This document shows, in pieces, positions 34,960 to 46,240 of a stretch of DNA of 64,000 nucleotides. Position numbers and translations under genes: made by a program. The first letter of the stretch is position 1. The number at the start of each line of letters is the position of its first letter. The DNA is taken from positions 161,638 to 225,637 of the forward strand of contig NZ_JACEFB010000004.1 of NCBI RefSeq assembly GCF_013694095.1, written 5' to 3'. The notes under the pieces were generated by a model that did not search any database, had not been told where the DNA came from, and saw nothing but the letters and a program-made list of their open reading frames with translations. The stretch comes from Thermogemmata fonticola. Its GTDB lineage: Bacteria > Planctomycetota > Planctomycetia > Gemmatales > Gemmataceae.

Positions 34960-36045
34960 TCAACTGGCACGTCCCGGAGTGGCTTCACTGCCGCCGCCGG
35001 TCATGGCCGCGATGTTATTGCGCATCGCCGTGTCGGATTGCAGATTGCGTAGGGCATAATAATCCATGACGCCGAGGTGGCCGCGGAGGAAGGCTTCGGC
35101 AATCGCCTTGGGGATCAACGCCTCGGCTTCGACCACTTTGGCGCGGTTTTCTTCGACCAGGGCGCGCATTTCCTGTTCGCGAGCCACCGCCGCCGCCCGC
35201 CGCTTCTCCGCTTCCGCCTGGGCCACGCGCAGGTCCGCCGCTGCCTGGTCTGCTTGCAGCTTCGCCCCGATGTTCTCCCCCACCTCGATGTGGGCGATGT
35301 CAATCGACACGATCTCGAAGGCCGTCTGGGCATCTAGGGCATTGTGCAGCACGGTCTGGGAAATCATGCCGGGATTGGCCAGCACCTGGCGGTGATCATC
35401 GGCGGAACCAATGGCCTTGACGATGCCTTCCCCGACACGGGCAATGATTGTTTCCTCGGTGGCGCCGCCCACCAGGCGCTCCAGCTTGGTGCGGACCGTC
35501 ACGCGAGCCTTGGCCAAAAGCTGAATGCCGTTTTTGCACACGGCATCCAGGAACTGCTTTCCCTTGGACGGGTCCGGGCAGTCGATGACTTTGGGGTTGA
35601 CGCTAGTACGGACCGCTTCGAGGATGTCGCGGCCTGCCAGATCGATGGCCGCCGCCGTCTTCCAGGGCAGCTCCAGCCCGGCCTTGTGCGCCGCGATGAC
35701 CGCCGTGGCCGTCTTCGGCACATTCCCGCGGGCCAAATAGTGAGACTCCAAATCCTGCGTCGTGACTTTGACCCCGGCTTGCACCAGAGCGATCTTCTGC
35801 CGCACGATCATCGCATAGTCCACGTTCCGCAGCTTCATCCCGATCAGGGTTCCCATGCCAATGTCGGCCTTGGTGAGCAGCGCTTGAATCCACAAGCGGA
35901 TGAAGCTGAAGAACACGAACAGGAACACCAGGATGATCAGGACGGCCACGAAGGCCAGGACAATGAGGATCATGTTCCCCTGGCTGATCCCCTCACTGCC
36001 TGCTTTCTGTTGGGCGAACATGAGGAAGGAATGGAGTGTGTTCAT
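34960..36045 (-). CDS. floA: Flotillin-like protein FloA
   Basis: The 361-residue protein has one N-terminal membrane segment ([21 protein letters not shown], in shorter blocks, about residues 25-47). The SPFH domain follows, with [20 protein letters not shown] and [20 protein letters not shown] at its front, then an Ala/Glu-rich coiled-coil stretch ([20 protein letters not shown]). It matches bacterial FloA (YqfA) in length. FloA proteins form membrane foci that organise lipid domains and influence secretion and signalling. GGGAAG lies near the ATG at 36045. Upstream on the same strand are two NfeD genes, the usual partners of FloA; a polyproline protein gene lies downstream. Confidence 0.93.
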
Positions 36046-36257
36046 CGTCGGCTTCCCTTATATCGGATCGAGAGTTCTCTCCCTGAGAGCTTCGGAGCAC
36101 AGCGCAAGGAAGATGTTTCAGTGGCTTATATGCAGTTGTTCGTGATCTCGTGATATTCCTTTTAGCGAAGATCGGGGTATTGGTCGAGACTCTCCCTGTT
36201 CGGCGCAGGTCGGTTTCCAAGCCGAGGTTCGGGGTCCCAAGGCGGCTCCTCTGCCTA

Positions 36258-36911
36258 TTAGCGCAGGTCGAGGTCCAGGTCGAGGTCGTCGCCGCTGCGC
36301 CGGGCCGGAGGCGGGGAAACCAGAGGGTCCGCCGCACTGCTAGAGCTAGGAGAGGCACTCGGTGCCGCACCCGGCGGGGCCGCGGGGGAGGCGCCGCCTT
36401 GGGGTTGGATTTCTTCGAGCGCTTCCGGCGGCACTTCCAGTTTGCGGACAATGACCCGCCCCGGCTTGACATCGATGCAGCGGACCCAGACGCCGGCCTC
36501 CAGCATTTCGCCTTCGGTGAGGGCATCCACCCGCTTGTTGCCAAAATCCACGATCCCGGAAGGACGCATCGGTGAGACAGTCTTGCCCACCCGGTTCTTC
36601 AGGGCCTCCAATTCGAGCACAGCGGGGATCGTGCTGGGGGCCGTCGCCGTATCGGGAGGCACCATGCCGATCGCCATGCGCCGCCAGGCCGCCACGATAA
36701 AGTAGAAAGCGGTCGGCAATCCGAGCGACAGGGCCGTGATGGCAATGACTGCCTCCAGGGTCGTCCCTTGCGAAAGGATAATCCCCACTCCGCCTGCGAA
36801 GGCCAGCAGGGAAATGACCACCAGAATCCCGCCGCTGGGCAGGAAAATCTCCGCCACCAGCAGCACTAGCCCAACCGCGAAGAGCACCAGGGAAAGCGTC
36901 AAGTAGTCCAT
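36258..36911 (-). CDS. Short NfeD family membrane protein
   Basis: The 217-residue protein begins with tightly packed hydrophobic helices (LSLVLFAVGLVLLVAEIFLP, GILVVISLLAFAGGVGIILS, VIAITALSLGLPTAFYFIVA). It ends with the NfeD-type OB-fold (VGKTVSPMRPSGIVDFGNKR, DALTEGEMLEAGVWVRCIDV). It lacks the ClpP-like protease domain, as in short NfeD proteins. The C-terminal 50 residues are Ala/Ser/Pro-rich and finish with DDLDLDLDLR. NfeD proteins bind FloA and are thought to help place or regulate it. It lies between floA (212 bases downstream) and the long nfeD gene, all on the same strand. Confidence 0.88.
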   Translation of the reverse strand: MDYLTLSLVLFAVGLVLLVAEIFLPSGGILVVISLLAFAGGVGIILSQGTTLEAVIAITALSLGLPTAFYFIVAAWRRMAIGMVPPDTATAPSTIPAVLELEALKNRVGKTVSPMRPSGIVDFGNKRVDALTEGEMLEAGVWVRCIDVKPGRVIVRKLEVPPEALEEIQPQGGASPAAPPGAAPSASPSSSSAADPLVSPPPARRSGDDLDLDLDLR

Positions 36912-37003
36912 GACTGTCTATTGTCATACTGGCATCGGGGAGCAGGGGCGAGTCAACTACCCCACCCGGCCCGTCCGCCTTCCGTCACCGGTTCCGAGTC
37001 CCG

Positions 37004-39223
37004 TTAGACTTCCTTTACCACAATCCGAGTCCCTTCTACCTGGATCACTTGGACGCGCGTGCCGGCGGGGATGAAGCTGCCATCGGAGACCACATCGACG
37101 AATTTGTCGCCGAAGCGGACCACGCCGGCGGGCCGCAAGGGTGTGTGACTGGTCCCAATAGCGCCGAGCAGTTCGGCTGCCTCTTCCGCACCGGGCAGAA
37201 ACTCCACGGCCCGTTCTCCCCGTTCCGCCGGGGCCTCCAAGATCAACCGGTTGGCATACGGCACCTTCGGGAGAAACCGCGCGATCAGGAACGCGGACAA
37301 CAGCGCTCCCAACATGGCCAGCAGGTACATCAGGATCCGCCAGCCGAGTTGGCCCCACTCCGCCCCGCTCTCCGGCAAACGGTCGAAAGTGACCAACGCC
37401 AGCCCGGCGAGCATGGATAGAATACCAAATAATCCAGGGGCACCAAAACCCGGCAGCACAAAAATCTCGATGCCCACCAGCACCAGACCTAACAGGAATA
37501 GCAGCAGCGCCAGGACAAAGGTCTGGCCGCTGAAGCGCGACTGGGACCAGAACACCAGAATGAAGCACAGAGCCGCCACGATGCCGGGGACGGTCAGCCC
37601 GGGGACCTTGAGTTCCAGGATCAAACCGGTAAAGCCGATGACGACCAGCAAGACCGTCACGACCGGTTTGCGTAAGAACTCAGCGAAGCGGTCGAGCCAG
37701 CCGGGGTCCGCCGGCCGCAGCTCGCGGAAGCCGAAGAGGGTGGCCACCTCGCTGACCTGCTTTCCTGTCACGGTGTAACGGGCCACGCCAATGTCCTTTG
37801 CCAAGGCGGCATCGAGCACCAACCATTCCCCCGGATGCTTAATGACCTTGTCCAGTTGCCATTCGTTCTGTTGGGCTTCCAGGTCGGCACGGGTCATGAG
37901 GCGGCGCTGCCGGGCATCGTCTTTGCGCACGGCCCGCACAATTTCCACCTGACGATCCAGCATCCCGTCGATGAGCACTTCGGGATACCCTTGCAGCCGG
38001 GCCAACTCGCGCAAGCTGAGGCGATGCGCCTCGATGTCTTTCGGCGGAGCCGACTCCACATAGCGGCTGAAATCGCCCAGGGTGGCACTGGGCAGCGGTT
38101 CGCCGCCGCCTTCTGGCGGCTTAGGCAGCGTCATGACAATCTGGGTACACCCCAACGCCACAACCGTCCCGGCGGCCGGGGCGGATTCAGGAATGAAGGC
38201 GATGATCTGCAAGGGTTGGTCGCCGCTCTGAGCGGCGCGGAGGTCTTCGGCTAGGCCGCGGGCCGCCACCAGATCGTTGCCGCCGCAGTGCAACTCCAGG
38301 ATGAGCACATTCCCGCCCCGGCTGCGGACATTGCGGAGCACGCGCTGCACCGATTCCCGCATCGCCCCGTCGACGTTTCCCCGCAGCACGTAGGTGAAAA
38401 CTTCCGGCGTCCGCCCGCCCAAAGGATCATCCCGTACCACCGCCGCCGGCAAGCCGTACATCTCCGCCACTTCCGCCCGGCTCTCCACGAGCGCCCCTCG
38501 CCGCAAACCCACGTCCCGCGCTACCTCCGCTGTGTACAAACCCACCGTGTTATCCGCCACGCCTCTCACCGGCTCCAAGCCCACGTAGAGCTTCTCCACG
38601 TTCGGATCGCGGGCATCCACATACGCCTTCTGATTCGGGTCCTTGCGGGCGGAGGCCTTACGCAGTTGCACCTGGGGATCGTACATCTTCTTGATCAGAG
38701 CGAAGCGCTGCTCCCCAAAGCGAGGATCGCCGCGCAGGAAGTACCCCTCGTACTCGGTGCGGGGCGGTTCGATCCCTGGTCCTGTGATTTCCCCCAGCGC
38801 TCCGTTGCGGCCCATGACGATCTCGTCGCAGGCCAGCACGGGCATGACTGTATGGCCGCTCACCTTATTGTGCACATAGGCCACCGTGGTGGCCCGACCC
38901 CGCAAACTGCGGATCAGATTCGTCAGGTCGCTACAGACGCCGGGCCGAGCGGTCCACGCCGGCTTTCCATCGGGATTGAAGTCAAAAACGATCACCCCCA
39001 GACTGCGGCCTCCATGCTCCCGCGCTTCGATCTGCTTCTGAATCCGTTCGACGGCCTCGCTGGTGATCGGACTGGGCACCGTGATGAAGAGTCCTTCCGA
39101 CACTTCCGGTTGGGCCGCCGGCCCGCTCGCCGCTGCCAGCAGCAGGGCCAAGCTGGTCCACAACTCCACGGCCGGCCGCCGGAACCTGCTACCTCCTGTC
39201 ACTGCCGCGCCCCTCCCCATCAT
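37004..39223 (-). CDS. Long NfeD protein: duplicated ClpP-like domains, membrane helices, OB-fold
   Basis: The 739-residue protein has a signal segment and then two ClpP/crotonase-like domains (about 40-270 and 280-430). Several membrane helices (about 510-680) and a C-terminal NfeD OB-fold (LRPAGVVRFGDKFVDVVSDG) follow. Canonical long NfeD has a Ser-Lys protease site with Ser in a SAG motif. Here domain 1 reads KVSGHTVMPVLACDEIVM and domain 2 reads SAPAAGTVVALGCTQIVM, so the nucleophile is doubtful in both. It is the first gene of the NfeD-NfeD-FloA cluster. I prefer ATG 39223 because GAGGA lies nine bases upstream; ATG 39232 would add three residues. Confidence 0.85.
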   Translation of the reverse strand: MMGRGAAVTGGSRFRRPAVELWTSLALLLAAASGPAAQPEVSEGLFITVPSPITSEAVERIQKQIEAREHGGRSLGVIVFDFNPDGKPAWTARPGVCSDLTNLIRSLRGRATTVAYVHNKVSGHTVMPVLACDEIVMGRNGALGEITGPGIEPPRTEYEGYFLRGDPRFGEQRFALIKKMYDPQVQLRKASARKDPNQKAYVDARDPNVEKLYVGLEPVRGVADNTVGLYTAEVARDVGLRRGALVESRAEVAEMYGLPAAVVRDDPLGGRTPEVFTYVLRGNVDGAMRESVQRVLRNVRSRGGNVLILELHCGGNDLVAARGLAEDLRAAQSGDQPLQIIAFIPESAPAAGTVVALGCTQIVMTLPKPPEGGGEPLPSATLGDFSRYVESAPPKDIEAHRLSLRELARLQGYPEVLIDGMLDRQVEIVRAVRKDDARQRRLMTRADLEAQQNEWQLDKVIKHPGEWLVLDAALAKDIGVARYTVTGKQVSEVATLFGFRELRPADPGWLDRFAEFLRKPVVTVLLVVIGFTGLILELKVPGLTVPGIVAALCFILVFWSQSRFSGQTFVLALLLFLLGLVLVGIEIFVLPGFGAPGLFGILSMLAGLALVTFDRLPESGAEWGQLGWRILMYLLAMLGALLSAFLIARFLPKVPYANRLILEAPAERGERAVEFLPGAEEAAELLGAIGTSHTPLRPAGVVRFGDKFVDVVSDGSFIPAGTRVQVIQVEGTRIVVKEV

Positions 39224-40019
39224 GGTCTGCATTCCTCACTGCCTGGAAACCAAACTTACGTGTCTTCATGGTCGAGAAAATCACTTCTCACCATCTCACC
39301 ATCGGGAAAACGCACAACCGGGAAAACCGCGCAATCCGCCGACGCCGTCGCTCTTCTGATTTTTTTCCTACTCGCTCTTCAGTCCCAATGACGATTCAAA
39401 GTCCTGAATCCCTTCTGGCTCCGCTAGCCGCGCCTTTTCTGTTGCCCCTGCGGACGGAGTCGAAGAGGCCGGTCCCCCCGCGCAGGGGGTTCGCCTTCGG
39501 GTAGCAAGTTTCGGAGCATCCCATCGCTTCCCGCCCTGGTCTGGGGAAGACAGCACCCTCCCCTTAGACCGGACCCCTCAAACCAGAATCCCCCCGCATG
39601 CCAATTATAACGCTTTCGCGTGCTCAAGCCAAAGGCTTAACAGAAGGCAACGCCAGAAGGAAGGTTGGGACGGCAGAAGCTAGCGGATTGCGTGCAGCCT
39701 CGCGCCCTGTCCCCTGGGTCCCTGCTCCACGGTGTCCTGGAACCCGCCCTGTGCCCCCGCCCGTTCCCAGTTTCCGAAATGGAACCGATGCTTCTCAGAC
39801 GCTCACCTCCACCTCTCCTCCATGAGCGTCGATAGGCGTGCCGCTCCCCCATACCGACCGTCAGGGCGCCGCTTCGTCTCGATATGAGGAACCGAACTCT
39901 CGCATCGAACCGAACTCTCGCACCGAGAGGAACCGAACTCTTGCGCCCTTCCGCCGAGGTCTCTGGCGCTGTCTCTTGTCCAACTCCCGCTCGTCATCTA
40001 ACATGTCTTACACCTGTGC
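39224..40019. other. Long intergenic region between the NfeD-FloA cluster and the tRNA
   Basis: Nearly 800 bases contain no credible gene. Three copies of a 16-bp unit stand near the tRNA end and are listed separately. The promoter of the minus-strand nfeD cluster is expected in the first 100-150 bases, where the sequence is locally AT-richer (about 39240-39380). Confidence 0.5.
39889..39945. repeat. Three short direct repeats upstream of the tRNA
   Basis: GAACCGAACTCTCGCA occurs at 39889-39904 and 39907-39922, and a third copy with one change (GAACCGAACTCTTGCG-like end) begins at 39930. Spacing is 18 and 23 bases. The copies lie 75-130 bases before the tRNA gene and could mark a duplication or a protein-binding array. 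Confidence 0.6.
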
Positions 40020-42146: not shown

Positions 42147-44435
42147 TTAGGTGTGTACCGGCATGCAGACCTGAGTGAGCAGGTGCTCGCATTTTTGCTG
42201 GATGAGGTCGGCGAGATTGGGCAGGGGCACGCCTTCCGGCAGGCTTTCGCGCAAGGCGGCGAGCCAGCGGGGGAAGGCGTAAATCTGGGCCAGGGTGTCG
42301 AGGGAGGCAGGTTCCAAGCGGGCCAGGTGCCCCCGCTGCTCGGCTTCGCTCCAGAGTTTTTTGCTTCGTCCGGTCAGGGAGAGGTCGTCTTCGGGGCGCA
42401 GCAGGACGAGCAGGTCCAGGGGCGGGGGTTGTTGGTCGAAGAGGCTGAATTTGATTTCCAGTTCGCGCGGTTTGCCCGCCCCCCGTGCGAGGAACAGTCC
42501 CACGGCCACCTTCCAGGGCTGGCCATCCTTGCAGGCCCAGTATCCCAGGGAGACAACGCCGTAGGTGGGATGATCGCTGAAGACATATTCGGGCACCACA
42601 TGTTGCAGGCGCCAGGGTCCGACTTTGACCCCATGTTCCAGGCAGTGGGCGAGGAATTGTCCCAGGGCGGCTTGCAATTCGCGGGTGGCGCCCGTGAGTG
42701 CCCCTTCCGGTTCGAGTTGGCGGCGGGCGGTGCGGTGTTCCTGGTCCCACAGTTCGGCCATCATCTGGGGGGTCAGGGTGGTGCGGGCGGCAGACGGAAC
42801 CGGTTCCGGGCAGGATGCCACAGGGATGGCCGCCGGGACTTCCCCCGGTGCAGGGGGAACCGTGGCGGTGGAGCTAGCCGCCTCCGCCGGCGGGATCGGC
42901 GACTCTGCCGGCGCTTCATCCCCGCAGGCCGGAGCGGATTCCGCTGGGATTTCAATCACGTCGACCTGGCGGAGGGTCACACCGGCGGCCGTCGCTTCAT
43001 TCTCCACCGCTTCCAGGGTCGAAGTGATCCGAGAGGGAGGGGGGGAACCCGCTTCCCACTCCGCCGGGCCATAGACCAGATGGTCGTAAAGATGGCGGCA
43101 CTGCTGGAGCATGTCGCGCAGGGTCGGTTCGGTCCGGGCGATGCGCTGGACCTGCTCTTCACGGAAGGGGAAGATGTCGGAGAGGACCTCTTCCGGCGGC
43201 AACTCCGCATGGCAGGGGCGCAGGCGGGCAGCGATGACCTGGCGGACCAACTCCGGCGGCGGCGCTTCCAAGCGCACGGCGGAAACCGTCCCGTAACCGG
43301 CCACGTGCACCGGATGGGTCAGGCGATCCTGAATGTAGCCGTCCAGCGAGGGGACAAAGCGGTTCCACAAGCCGCGCTCCGCGAAGATGAGGAAGCAGAG
43401 GCCATCCAACTGATGCAGGACCTGGACGATACCAGCGAAGAAGGCTTCGGCCGTCCGGTGGACATCGTCGCCACGGCGGACCAGGAGCAAGTCTTCCAAC
43501 TGATCGAAGGCCACCACGACCGGGATGTGCAGGGAGGCGAACAGGTCCATCAGCACTTTGAACAGGGCCAGCACCAGGTCCTGGCGGGTCGGGCGGACGT
43601 GGAACTCCAGCTCCGCAAAACCGTAGGTGAGGAAGTTCGCCAATTCGGCTTCATCCCGGCGGAGGATGGCATGGGCGAAGCCGCGAAGGATGAAGCGGCG
43701 CATCAAGCCGGCGGGGTTGCGCGGATCGCCTTCGTTACGGAAGTGGTCGAAGAGTGGAAGCAGGCGCTCCGGTTCCACGCCAGTTTGGTGGAGCAGGGCG
43801 AGCAGGGAAGGCGGCGCCAGGAACGGGGGGGCCTGTTCGGCGGCTTGCAAGCCTTCGAGCAACTGGTGCCGCCGCTGGCGGGCTTGGGCCAGTCCCCAAC
43901 CCAAGCGCCGGCCCCAGCGCCCCAAGCCTCCCGCAGGGAACAGGTCCAGCAGGGCGTTATCCGGAAGTTGCGGCAGGGTCTGGAGCAGGGCCTGACGCAG
44001 CAGACGCTCCCCAATGTACTCCAGAGGCCGAAGCCCTTTCTGTCGTCCGCCGCCCAGCAGAGTGTCCAGAATCTGAAACAACAGATACTCCAGGAAGTCG
44101 CATTCCCGCTGGTACACTCCCGGAGTGACGAGCAACTGCCATTGTCCTCCTTCGCCGTGTTTGATGGAGTGCAGTAAGTGGGTTTTGCCCGCTCCTTTGT
44201 TGCCGAGCACCGGCACCACTTCGGAATGCAACCGCGGTTGATAGCGGTACTGGTCGATGATGGCGTGGAGCAACTGCCGCTCCTCGGCAAAGAGTTCCGG
44301 GACGTGATAGCGGGCGCAGACTTCGTCGTCGGGATTGCGGGCGAAGTAGTTGCGGAAGGGGTTGCCGAGCCGTTGCAGAATGCGGCGGGTCGGCTCCGAG
44401 AGAGCAGGCGGATCGGCAGCAACGCTTCGGGTCAT
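42147..44435 (-). CDS. Large P-loop ATPase of unknown system, coupled to a winged-helix partner
   Basis: The 762-residue protein without signal peptide has a Walker A motif GNKGAGKTH (residues 78-86). A Walker B-like VVVAFDQLEDLL with Asp311 follows, spaced from it by a long helical insert. DQLEDL resembles the DQxE motif of STAND-type NTPases. From about 380 there is a helical lid (EAPPPELVRQVIAARLRPCH). Residues about 480-590 are an Ala/Pro-rich linker. A C-terminal domain (LQAALGQFLAHCLEHGVKVG, VSLGYWACKDGQPWKVAVGL) follows; it resembles no family I know. The ATG overlaps the stop of the preceding gene by four bases (44432-44435). It is not a standard replication or secretion ATPase. Confidence 0.75.
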   Translation of the reverse strand: MTRSVAADPPALSEPTRRILQRLGNPFRNYFARNPDDEVCARYHVPELFAEERQLLHAIIDQYRYQPRLHSEVVPVLGNKGAGKTHLLHSIKHGEGGQWQLLVTPGVYQRECDFLEYLLFQILDTLLGGGRQKGLRPLEYIGERLLRQALLQTLPQLPDNALLDLFPAGGLGRWGRRLGWGLAQARQRRHQLLEGLQAAEQAPPFLAPPSLLALLHQTGVEPERLLPLFDHFRNEGDPRNPAGLMRRFILRGFAHAILRRDEAELANFLTYGFAELEFHVRPTRQDLVLALFKVLMDLFASLHIPVVVAFDQLEDLLLVRRGDDVHRTAEAFFAGIVQVLHQLDGLCFLIFAERGLWNRFVPSLDGYIQDRLTHPVHVAGYGTVSAVRLEAPPPELVRQVIAARLRPCHAELPPEEVLSDIFPFREEQVQRIARTEPTLRDMLQQCRHLYDHLVYGPAEWEAGSPPPSRITSTLEAVENEATAAGVTLRQVDVIEIPAESAPACGDEAPAESPIPPAEAASSTATVPPAPGEVPAAIPVASCPEPVPSAARTTLTPQMMAELWDQEHRTARRQLEPEGALTGATRELQAALGQFLAHCLEHGVKVGPWRLQHVVPEYVFSDHPTYGVVSLGYWACKDGQPWKVAVGLFLARGAGKPRELEIKFSLFDQQPPPLDLLVLLRPEDDLSLTGRSKKLWSEAEQRGHLARLEPASLDTLAQIYAFPRWLAALRESLPEGVPLPNLADLIQQKCEHLLTQVCMPVHT

Positions 44436-45388
44436 GGCTGGTTCTCCGGGAAAGCCAAGGCAGGGGCGAGAGTCGATGTCAAGGGGGCAGCGCCAGCGAC
44501 GGCGGCCGGAGGCGGGTTCCCTGCTTCACGAACGGGAGGCGGGTTCCCTGCTTCACGAATAGGGCGGGCAGCAGCCGAGGTGGGAGTGCACGGGCGGAGG
44601 CTGGCGTAATAGGCGACACCGTGACCGGCGAGGAGAGCGTAAGCCGGTTCCGGCAAGGCGTAGAGGGGGCCGGTCCAGGGATGCAAGGCCAGCGCCTGGC
44701 GTGCCTGCAAACGGCGCAGGGCATCGTGGAACAAGCCGATACTTAGCGCCCGGCGCTGGGACACCGCCCGGAACAGCTCCGGCAAGGGGCAATCGGCCCC
44801 ACCCTGGCGGGACCATTCCGCCAGAGCGTGCAGGATCGCTTCCGCCGCCGCTATCTCCGCAGTGGCCGCTCCGGACGAATCGGGAGGCTCCTGAAGCGAA
44901 ACGCTGCGTTCCGGCGAAGATATGCCACGATCCAGCGGCGGAGGCGTATTGCGGCTCGGTTGGGCTGGCAGCGGCGGTGCACTCGCGGCGAGCCAGCGGT
45001 TCAGGGCCTGCCGCAGTTCCTGCAATTCCTCCTGGAGCCGCTGAGCGGCACTGAGCCATTCCGCGACGAGGGCCGTCCGCTTTTCGACCACCCGCAGGAA
45101 ATCTTCGAGGACCTGACGGGGCTGGGCTTCCTGGAGCAGGCGTTGCCAGCCGCGGTCGCTGAGGGTGTAGCGCTCCGAGGCCGCGGTTCCCGCGCCGGCG
45201 GCACGGGAGGGGGGAACGAGTTGCAGCCAATTCTCGGCCAGGCATTTTTGCGCCGCGGTGCGCCCCGCTTTGCTGGCGGGAAACAACCCCCCTTCCCCCT
45301 GGCGGGAAGGAAACAGAGGCAGGCCGCCGGGATGGGCAGCCGCCCGGCTCAAAGCGGCGGTGATCAGGTGCGTGAGTGCATCGGCCAC
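44432..45388 (-). CDS. Winged-helix and coiled-coil protein coupled to the P-loop ATPase
   Basis: The 318-residue protein has an N-terminal winged-helix-like region (TAAQKCLAENWLQLVPPSRA to ERYTLSDRGWQRLLQ). A coiled coil of about 50 residues follows (VEKRTALVAEWLSAAQRLQE). After a Pro/Ser-rich linker a second winged-helix-like region follows (AAEAILHALAEWSRQGGADC, LFHDALRRLQARQALALHPW). The C-terminus contains two copies of REAGNPPP and is low-complexity. The GTG start at 45388 has AAGGA nine bases upstream. Its stop overlaps the ATPase start, so the two proteins are probably made together in fixed ratio. A DNA-binding partner for the ATPase is the simplest reading; no known system is recognised. 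Confidence 0.7.
   Translation of the reverse strand: MADALTHLITAALSRAAAHPGGLPLFPSRQGEGGLFPASKAGRTAAQKCLAENWLQLVPPSRAAGAGTAASERYTLSDRGWQRLLQEAQPRQVLEDFLRVVEKRTALVAEWLSAAQRLQEELQELRQALNRWLAASAPPLPAQPSRNTPPPLDRGISSPERSVSLQEPPDSSGAATAEIAAAEAILHALAEWSRQGGADCPLPELFRAVSQRRALSIGLFHDALRRLQARQALALHPWTGPLYALPEPAYALLAGHGVAYYASLRPCTPTSAAARPIREAGNPPPVREAGNPPPAAVAGAAPLTSTLAPALAFPENQP
44508..44559 (-). repeat. 25-bp perfect repeat in the winged-helix gene
   Basis: Two identical 25-bp copies at 44508-44532 and 44535-44559 (period 27) encode the two REAGNPPP units near the C-terminus. The period is a multiple of three, so the frame is kept. It is a recent internal duplication. Confidence 0.85.
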
Positions 45389-45547: not shown

Positions 45548-46240
45548 ATGTCTCTCCGGCTCCCGCCTCGATGGTCGCCTTGCATTCTCGGCAGCCCGCC
45601 GGCTTGGACCTGGCTGCTGCTCTTCCTCACTCTGGCCTTAGGGAGCAAGCCGGTCTTGGCCCAACCCCCTGCTCTCCTCGCCCTTCAGCCGGTCCCTTCC
45701 GCTCAGCCGCCCGCGCCATCCGCTGGCCAACCGCCCGCACCACCCGCTGCCCCACCGGCTGCCCAGCCACCCCTCCCCTTACCCACCGATCCGGCCGCCT
45801 TTGACCGCCTGGTGGTCGATACCCTGCGCGATGTCCACAACCTCGGAGCGGAGCTGTACAACAACTCCCGCGATTACGCCGGCACCTACCGCCTCTACCA
45901 CGGCGCCCTGCTCACCGTGCGACCGCTGTTGTCCCATCGGCCCCCTGTCCAGCAGCGCATCGATCTGGGACTGCAAGAGGTGGAACGGGAACCCACCCTG
46001 GCCCATAAAGCCTTCCGCCTCCATGTGGTCATCGAGGACGTGCGCAGCGAATTGAAGAAGACGGCATCCGCACCCAAACCCCCGGAAAAGAAACCCCAGG
46101 ACAAACCACCGCTACCCCCGGAAAAGAAACCCCAGGACAAACCACCGCTACCCCCGGAGAAAAAATCTCCTCCTCCGCCGCCGGAGAACAAACTGCCGCC
46201 TTTACCCGTGGCCCCACCCCCACGACCGGCCCTGAAGTGA
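45548..46240 (+). CDS. Secreted protein with Pro-rich linkers and a Lys/Pro repeat tail
   Basis: The 230-residue protein begins with a signal peptide (WLLLFLTLALGSKPVLA, cleavage near residue 38). A Pro/Ala/Gln-rich linker follows, then a helical domain of about 90 residues (DRLVVDTLRDVHNLGAELYN, YHGALLTVRPLLSHRPPVQQ). The tail has two perfect 12-residue repeats PPEKKPQDKPPL and a degenerate third. GGGAGG seven bases before ATG 45548 sets the start. No enzyme motif is visible; the tail may bind acidic cell-wall or matrix polymers. It is divergent from the winged-helix gene and converges on the large TIM-barrel-like gene. Confidence 0.75.
   Translation: MSLRLPPRWSPCILGSPPAWTWLLLFLTLALGSKPVLAQPPALLALQPVPSAQPPAPSAGQPPAPPAAPPAAQPPLPLPTDPAAFDRLVVDTLRDVHNLGAELYNNSRDYAGTYRLYHGALLTVRPLLSHRPPVQQRIDLGLQEVEREPTLAHKAFRLHVVIEDVRSELKKTASAPKPPEKKPQDKPPLPPEKKPQDKPPLPPEKKSPPPPPENKLPPLPVAPPPRPALK
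46076..46165 (+). repeat. 36-bp coding tandem repeat (Lys/Pro)
   Basis: Two perfect copies and one partial copy of a 36-bp unit encode PPEKKPQDKPPL. The unit is in frame and probably varies in number between strains. Confidence 0.8.

Follow-up and report, generated by a model that had tools for sequence, protein, structure and literature searches.

What does a winged-helix protein with a coiled coil do beside a P-loop ATPase, and does such a layout mark a defence system? The question is raised by two adjacent genes in a 64,000-nucleotide stretch of the genome of Thermogemmata fonticola (contig NZ_JACEFB010000004.1, positions 161,638 to 225,637; hereafter the window). A first-pass annotation, made from the letters alone, had described them as a two-gene unit that matches no named system and had considered a role in conflict. 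We find that the pair, here called the partner and the ATPase, is a vertically inherited core module specific to the order Gemmatales.

The ATPase is present in 92 of 102 Gemmatales genomes, in 68 of the 71 good ones and in 43 of 44 genera. The partner family was found in 94 of the 102 genomes and in all 71 good ones (71/71), a count that includes paralogues and that in some genomes rests on a partner paralogue only. The pairing is not unique to the source genome. A scan of 397 genomes of the class placed each of the 92 ATPase matches inside the Gemmatales and none in the about 295 others, and in a sample of the phylum the source genome alone gave a full match, the remaining matches being short P-loop or coiled-coil stretches; both scans for the ATPase scored two candidates per genome, and very distant relatives may be missed. 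Collections of plasmids, phages and viral contigs yielded no relatives.

The inheritance of the ATPase was followed in its tree, where each of the 11 genera with at least two rows forms a single branch. The tree shows 20 genus-label changes, which is the minimum possible, and none of 200 shuffles gave a value as low. This genus-by-genus arrangement indicates vertical inheritance. Over the same 13 genomes, the mean identity is 0.68 for the ATPase (0.71 for its AAA+ domain and 0.74 for its C-terminal domain, where the module is most conserved), 0.58 for FolC and 0.51 for the partner. The conservation of both genes across the order shows that both are real. Moreover, an ATPase that is lineage specific, more conserved across the order than a folate enzyme and not found outside it points to something basic in Gemmatales cell biology.

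Both open reading frames, and the ATGA in which the stop of one overlaps the start of the other, were found on the minus strand where the annotation had placed them (Table 1). From this 4-base overlap it had derived a probably fixed ratio of the two products. Both genes are present at 32 homologous loci; the same overlap is clear at just one of these, L064, and most have 6 to 200 bases between the genes. The overlap is therefore a weak guide to a fixed ratio, which is not a property of the family. An apparent fusion of partner and ATPase in L011/L040 (a 1052-residue open reading frame) looks like a frame change, with the remaining partner sequence in another frame. A scan for terminators and promoters gave results at chance level. 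Partner and ATPase both score below every curated Pfam and NCBIfam cut-off and have no PADLOC match, and no description of the pair was found in the literature searched, in agreement with the view that it belongs to no named system.

Table 1. Positions of the two genes, their predicted parts and the divergent neighbour in the window.
Feature	Positions	Strand	Basis and remarks
Partner gene	44432..45388	-	Open reading frame 45388 to 44432, GTG start, 318 residues; model, homologues, alignment
Partner N-terminal winged helix, residues 2-87	45128..45385	-	AlphaFold2 secondary structure; PadR/MarR-like winged-helix matches
Partner coiled-coil helix, residues 90-136	44981..45121	-	47-residue helix in model; probable dimerisation segment
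Partner C-terminal winged helix, residues 172-264	44597..44875	-	Model; structural matches; most conserved part of the partner
ATGA, partner stop overlapping ATPase start	44432..44435	-	Sequence; overlap not kept in homologous loci
ATPase gene	42147..44435	-	Open reading frame 44435 to 42147, ATG start, 762 residues; AAA+ domain, variable linker, C-terminal α/β domain
AAA+ (ORC/Cdc6-type) domain, residues 14-461	43053..44396	-	Model and structural matches; large all-helical insertion ahead of Walker B
Walker A GNKGAGKT, residues 78-85	44181..44204	-	Sequence; core Gly/Lys/Thr invariant in paralogue types I and II
Walker B AFDQLED (D311, E314)	43491..43511	-	Sequence; STAND-type D-[QN]-x-E; D311, L313 and E314 unchanged between types I and II
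ATPase C-terminal domain, residues 556-761	42153..42770	-	Restriction-endonuclease-like topology in model; weak Foldseek matches; probably nuclease-dead
Divergent neighbour gene	45548..46240	+	Small proline-rich protein, probable signal peptide, no known family; conserved neighbour in 21/36 loci

The architecture of the ATPase was explored using a structural model (predicted local distance difference test score, pLDDT, 76.2; its residue numbers run one behind those of the protein), which shows the AAA+ domain, a disordered linker at about 460-555 and the C-terminal domain. The P-loop motif GNKGAGKTH and the AFDQLEDLL motif reported by the first-pass annotation are both present and are essentially invariant in 35 homologues. 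The AAA+ part matches yeast Orc4 (VIA Z 13.0, 251 residues, 6.0 Å), archaeal Cdc6 (Z 12.8), RADAR RdrA (Z 12.0, 4.2 Å), TnsC (Z 11.3) and BREX BrxC (Z 10.9, 264 residues, 4.6 Å), the last giving the longest alignment of low root mean square deviation (rmsd). Rows no more than 1 Z apart were treated as ties, and the near-equal values therefore support the predicted class, an ORC/STAND-type AAA+ ATPase, but not an exact nearest family. The STAND-like assignment of the annotation is upheld in this broader form by the DxxE-type Walker B and by the ORC/Cdc6 and RdrA matches.

Hidden Markov model (HMM) searches point in the same direction. AAA_16 matches all 35 aligned ATPases (best 5e-6), with weaker matches to AAA_22, DnaA, nSTAND5 and ORC-CDC6-like profiles, and the consensus of the divergent paralogues exceeds the AAA_16 gathering score (36.2 vs 32.6 bits). 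A sequence search of the PDB gave no meaningful match. Types I and II also share two invariant arginines: R371, which immediately precedes the strand at 375-377, and R440, which belongs to the lid helix. From these positions in the model, Arg371 is a candidate trans-acting Arg finger and Arg440 a candidate sensor-2 residue.

The C-terminal domain, which the annotation could not assign, has in the model the order α-β-β-β-α-β-α-β-α, which resembles that of restriction endonucleases with their αβββαβ core, and Foldseek matches it to AddB, BstEII and EndoMS, all weakly. Between types I and II, strands 2-3 contain no conserved acidic/lysine set corresponding to the PD-(D/E)XK catalytic D...(D/E)xK. 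This domain is therefore probably inactive as a nuclease.

The partner model (AlphaFold2, mean pLDDT 80.8) shows, as had been read from the sequence, a winged helix on either side of a coiled coil, with a disordered linker between the long helix and the second winged helix. The C-terminal winged helix resembles the winged-helix domain (WHD) of MCM4 (Z 10.5) and the winged helix of Rpa2 and cullin WHB (both Z 10.2), with rmsd values of 1.4-1.9 Å, and the MCM4_WHD profile matches the partner consensus weakly (E 0.017). In the homologue alignment, the invariant residues concentrate in this same domain. The winged-helix folds matched by the partner are generic, and the matches reveal no function.

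Fold and conservation together suggest how such a pair might work. The partner, probably dimeric through its coiled coil, would bind DNA with its winged helices and would recruit or position the ATPase. The latter may assemble on ATP binding, using the candidate finger Arg371 and the candidate sensor-2 Arg440, and the assembled ATPase would switch or remodel the DNA-bound complex. The pseudo-restriction-endonuclease domain could then provide a second surface for binding DNA or a ligand, rather than a nuclease. We see about an even chance that the pair is an order-specific core module that acts on the chromosome, in regulation, maintenance or replication control, and not in phage defence. More tentatively, and with a clearly smaller chance, the Gemmatales, whose nucleoid is unusually condensed, may have gained a second AAA+ machine, ORC/Cdc6-like and loaded on DNA, together with a winged-helix loader of its own; it would serve chromosome organisation or replication control in every cell beside DnaA.

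Several observations weigh against a core chromosomal role. The C-terminal fold rests on a topology of moderate confidence (pLDDT about 58-90) and on the weak Foldseek matches. In complete genomes, some 1-3 Mb separate the pair from dnaA, which would leave a replication role without origin linkage. The ATPase is absent from 3 of the 71 good genomes and is not universally essential; two of these three belong to one genus, g29. This genus (L127-L130) keeps the ATPase and the divergent gene without an adjacent partner, and L051-L053 and L058 show the same gap in place of the partner. This means that the partner is dispensable to some degree, or that a paralogue takes its place in trans. The pattern in g29 would agree with a functional link between the two proteins, under which the ATPase becomes less needed once the partner is lost, or with a takeover by a partner-type paralogue.

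Paralogues of both genes were observed. Most Gemmatales also carry a stand-alone partner paralogue without ATPase (L107-L118), which is often transcribed divergently from trpS; in the source genome it is found at L140:4569-5381 (G000:C12:68637-69173), near groES/groEL. A second, divergent pair, with an ATPase about 21-28% identical to that of the window, is present in 8 of the 102 Gemmatales genomes. In all eight it is accompanied by a third downstream gene of about 210-255 residues, and these loci (L099-L106, e.g. L099:5047-8630) have the order partner-type gene, ATPase, third gene. A phage-type helicase/DUF3987 gene is found close to one copy. This three-gene paralogue is an accessory branch that could be a conflict system, and it may be the origin of the core pair, or the reverse. 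Together with the partner-less genus, its patchy occurrence offers a natural experiment on the dependence of the two proteins on each other.

The divergently transcribed gene suggests a more local role, in which the partner would be a transcription factor for this secreted-protein gene and for its own operon, and the ATPase an ATP-dependent co-regulator comparable to archaeal Orc1-2. Orc1-2, a non-initiator ORC-family protein that regulates DNA-damage-responsive expression (PMC9738581), provides a precedent. The retention of the neighbour in most of the 36 loci with enough flank is consistent with this switch, as is the frequent divergent arrangement of the partner-type paralogue with trpS. 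However, the gene is missing in 15 of the 36 loci while the ATPase persists, and its product is far less conserved than the ATPase (mean identity 0.36 vs 0.68). The divergent region contains no conserved operator or shared palindrome, the best 8-mers reaching 5 of 16 loci compared with at most 4 at random. We regard a local transcription switch as unlikely, although not negligible.

An accessory role in replication initiation or helicase loading beside DnaA, in which the ATPase would be an ORC/Cdc6-like loader and the partner would be MCM-WHD-like, is favoured by the best structural neighbours of the two proteins (ORC/Cdc6 and MCM4-WHD/Rpa2-WH) and by weak DnaA/Hda HMM matches in most ATPase homologues. 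It is opposed by the generic nature of winged helices and AAA+ folds, by the distance from dnaA, by the good genomes without ATPase and by the presence of DnaA in 102 of 102 Gemmatales genomes, and we consider it quite improbable. Replacement of DnaA is ruled out by this last count, and the positions of the pair relative to dnaA do not support origin linkage. Two DnaA-like genes are seen in most Gemmatales genomes: a longer one of about 480-600 residues and a short one of about 350 residues, and in several complete genomes the short gene stands at position 1.

Defence genes are usually patchy and fast-changing, the reverse of what is seen for this pair. A conflict role, in which the winged-helix protein would sense foreign DNA and the ORC/STAND ATPase would trigger a response, as in BREX-type or other systems joining ORC ATPases to winged helix-turn-helix proteins, draws on the recurrence of such proteins and ORC/Cdc6 ATPases in defence loci (PMC12839542), on RdrA and BrxC among the structural matches and on the patchy three-gene paralogue (8/102), but it is the least probable reading and is rejected for the window copy, given its order-wide vertical inheritance, its conservation above FolC, its ordinary neighbours, the lack of relatives in phages, plasmids and viral contigs, the lack of an effector in the pair and the absence of PglZ. 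The first-pass annotation had named a housekeeping context in all Gemmataceae as the finding that would refute its suggestion of a defence role, and by this measure the suggestion is refuted for the window copy; for the three-gene branch it may still hold.

The core module stands in a non-mobile context. The ten neighbours in the window have no PADLOC match, their Pfam matches include no transposase, and PglZ (PF08665) was not found in the whole source genome. In 16 of 35 loci the ATPase is followed by folC; in the window a DUF1559 gene follows instead. Elsewhere in the window, what looks like an ordinary membrane-quality cluster spans 34960-39232. It includes a protease-like gene with an NfeD domain (37004-39232, Pfam NfeD), next to probable flotillin-like and NfeD genes that were recognised only by eye.

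The pair was compared with known systems. The Sll1717-family P-loop ATPase (NF047389) is the sole NCBIfam match of the window ATPase under 1e-3 and recurs in all 35 members, but it scores 21.8 bits where the cut-off is 75 and spans only about 46 residues around the P-loop. MukBEF and condensin-like systems also place a partner with a winged helix and a coiled coil beside an ATPase; the window ATPase, however, is of the AAA+ and not the SMC/ABC type, and has no long coiled coil. The Tn7 or CRISPR-associated transposon (CAST) systems with TnsC differ in having a transposase partner, which is absent from the Pfam matches of the neighbours, and the inheritance here is vertical. STAND NTPases (nSTAND families, RADAR RdrA) share the D-[QN]-x-E Walker B, the structural match to RdrA and weak nSTAND5 and NACHT HMM matches. 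The ATPase nevertheless falls below every curated STAND cut-off (14 vs 34 bits for nSTAND5, 16.6 vs 26.7 for NACHT). No superstructure-forming C-terminal repeats of the TPR, WD or similar kind are visible in its model, and no repeat family matches it.

In BrxC of BREX and the related DUF499/PglY-type ORC ATPases, an ORC/Cdc6 ATPase is associated with winged helices and a coiled coil (PMC12839542), and the arrangement in the window would work similarly. In contrast with BrxC, the module is split over two proteins and the α+β domain of BrxC is not seen in the window ATPase. The neighbours include no BREX or other defence gene, and the absence of PglZ from the genome means that the layout is not a member of BREX. 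With the ORC/Cdc6 class (archaeal Cdc6/Orc1, eukaryotic Orc1/4/5 and TnsC) the ATPase shares the AAA+ core with lid helices (Z 11-13) and the Walker residues, and may share the Arg finger at the base of strand 5 and the sensor-2 Arg of the lid, for which Arg371 and Arg440 are the candidates. It differs from this class in the large helical insertion before Walker B, the STAND-like DQLE and the additional restriction-endonuclease-like domain, with a sequence identity of 10-15%. In Orc1/Cdc6 the C-terminal winged helix is part of the same chain, whereas here an α/β domain takes that place and the winged helices sit in the partner; the ATPase is therefore not an Orc1/Cdc6 member in the strict sense. 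Unlike anti-phage defence systems in general, the pair is not patchy and has no mobile or defence-rich context, being core to the order with a vertical tree. An ORC/Cdc6-plus-winged-helix layout is usually taken for defence; its occurrence here within a core set of genes that passes down vertically is a caution against naming defence from architecture alone.

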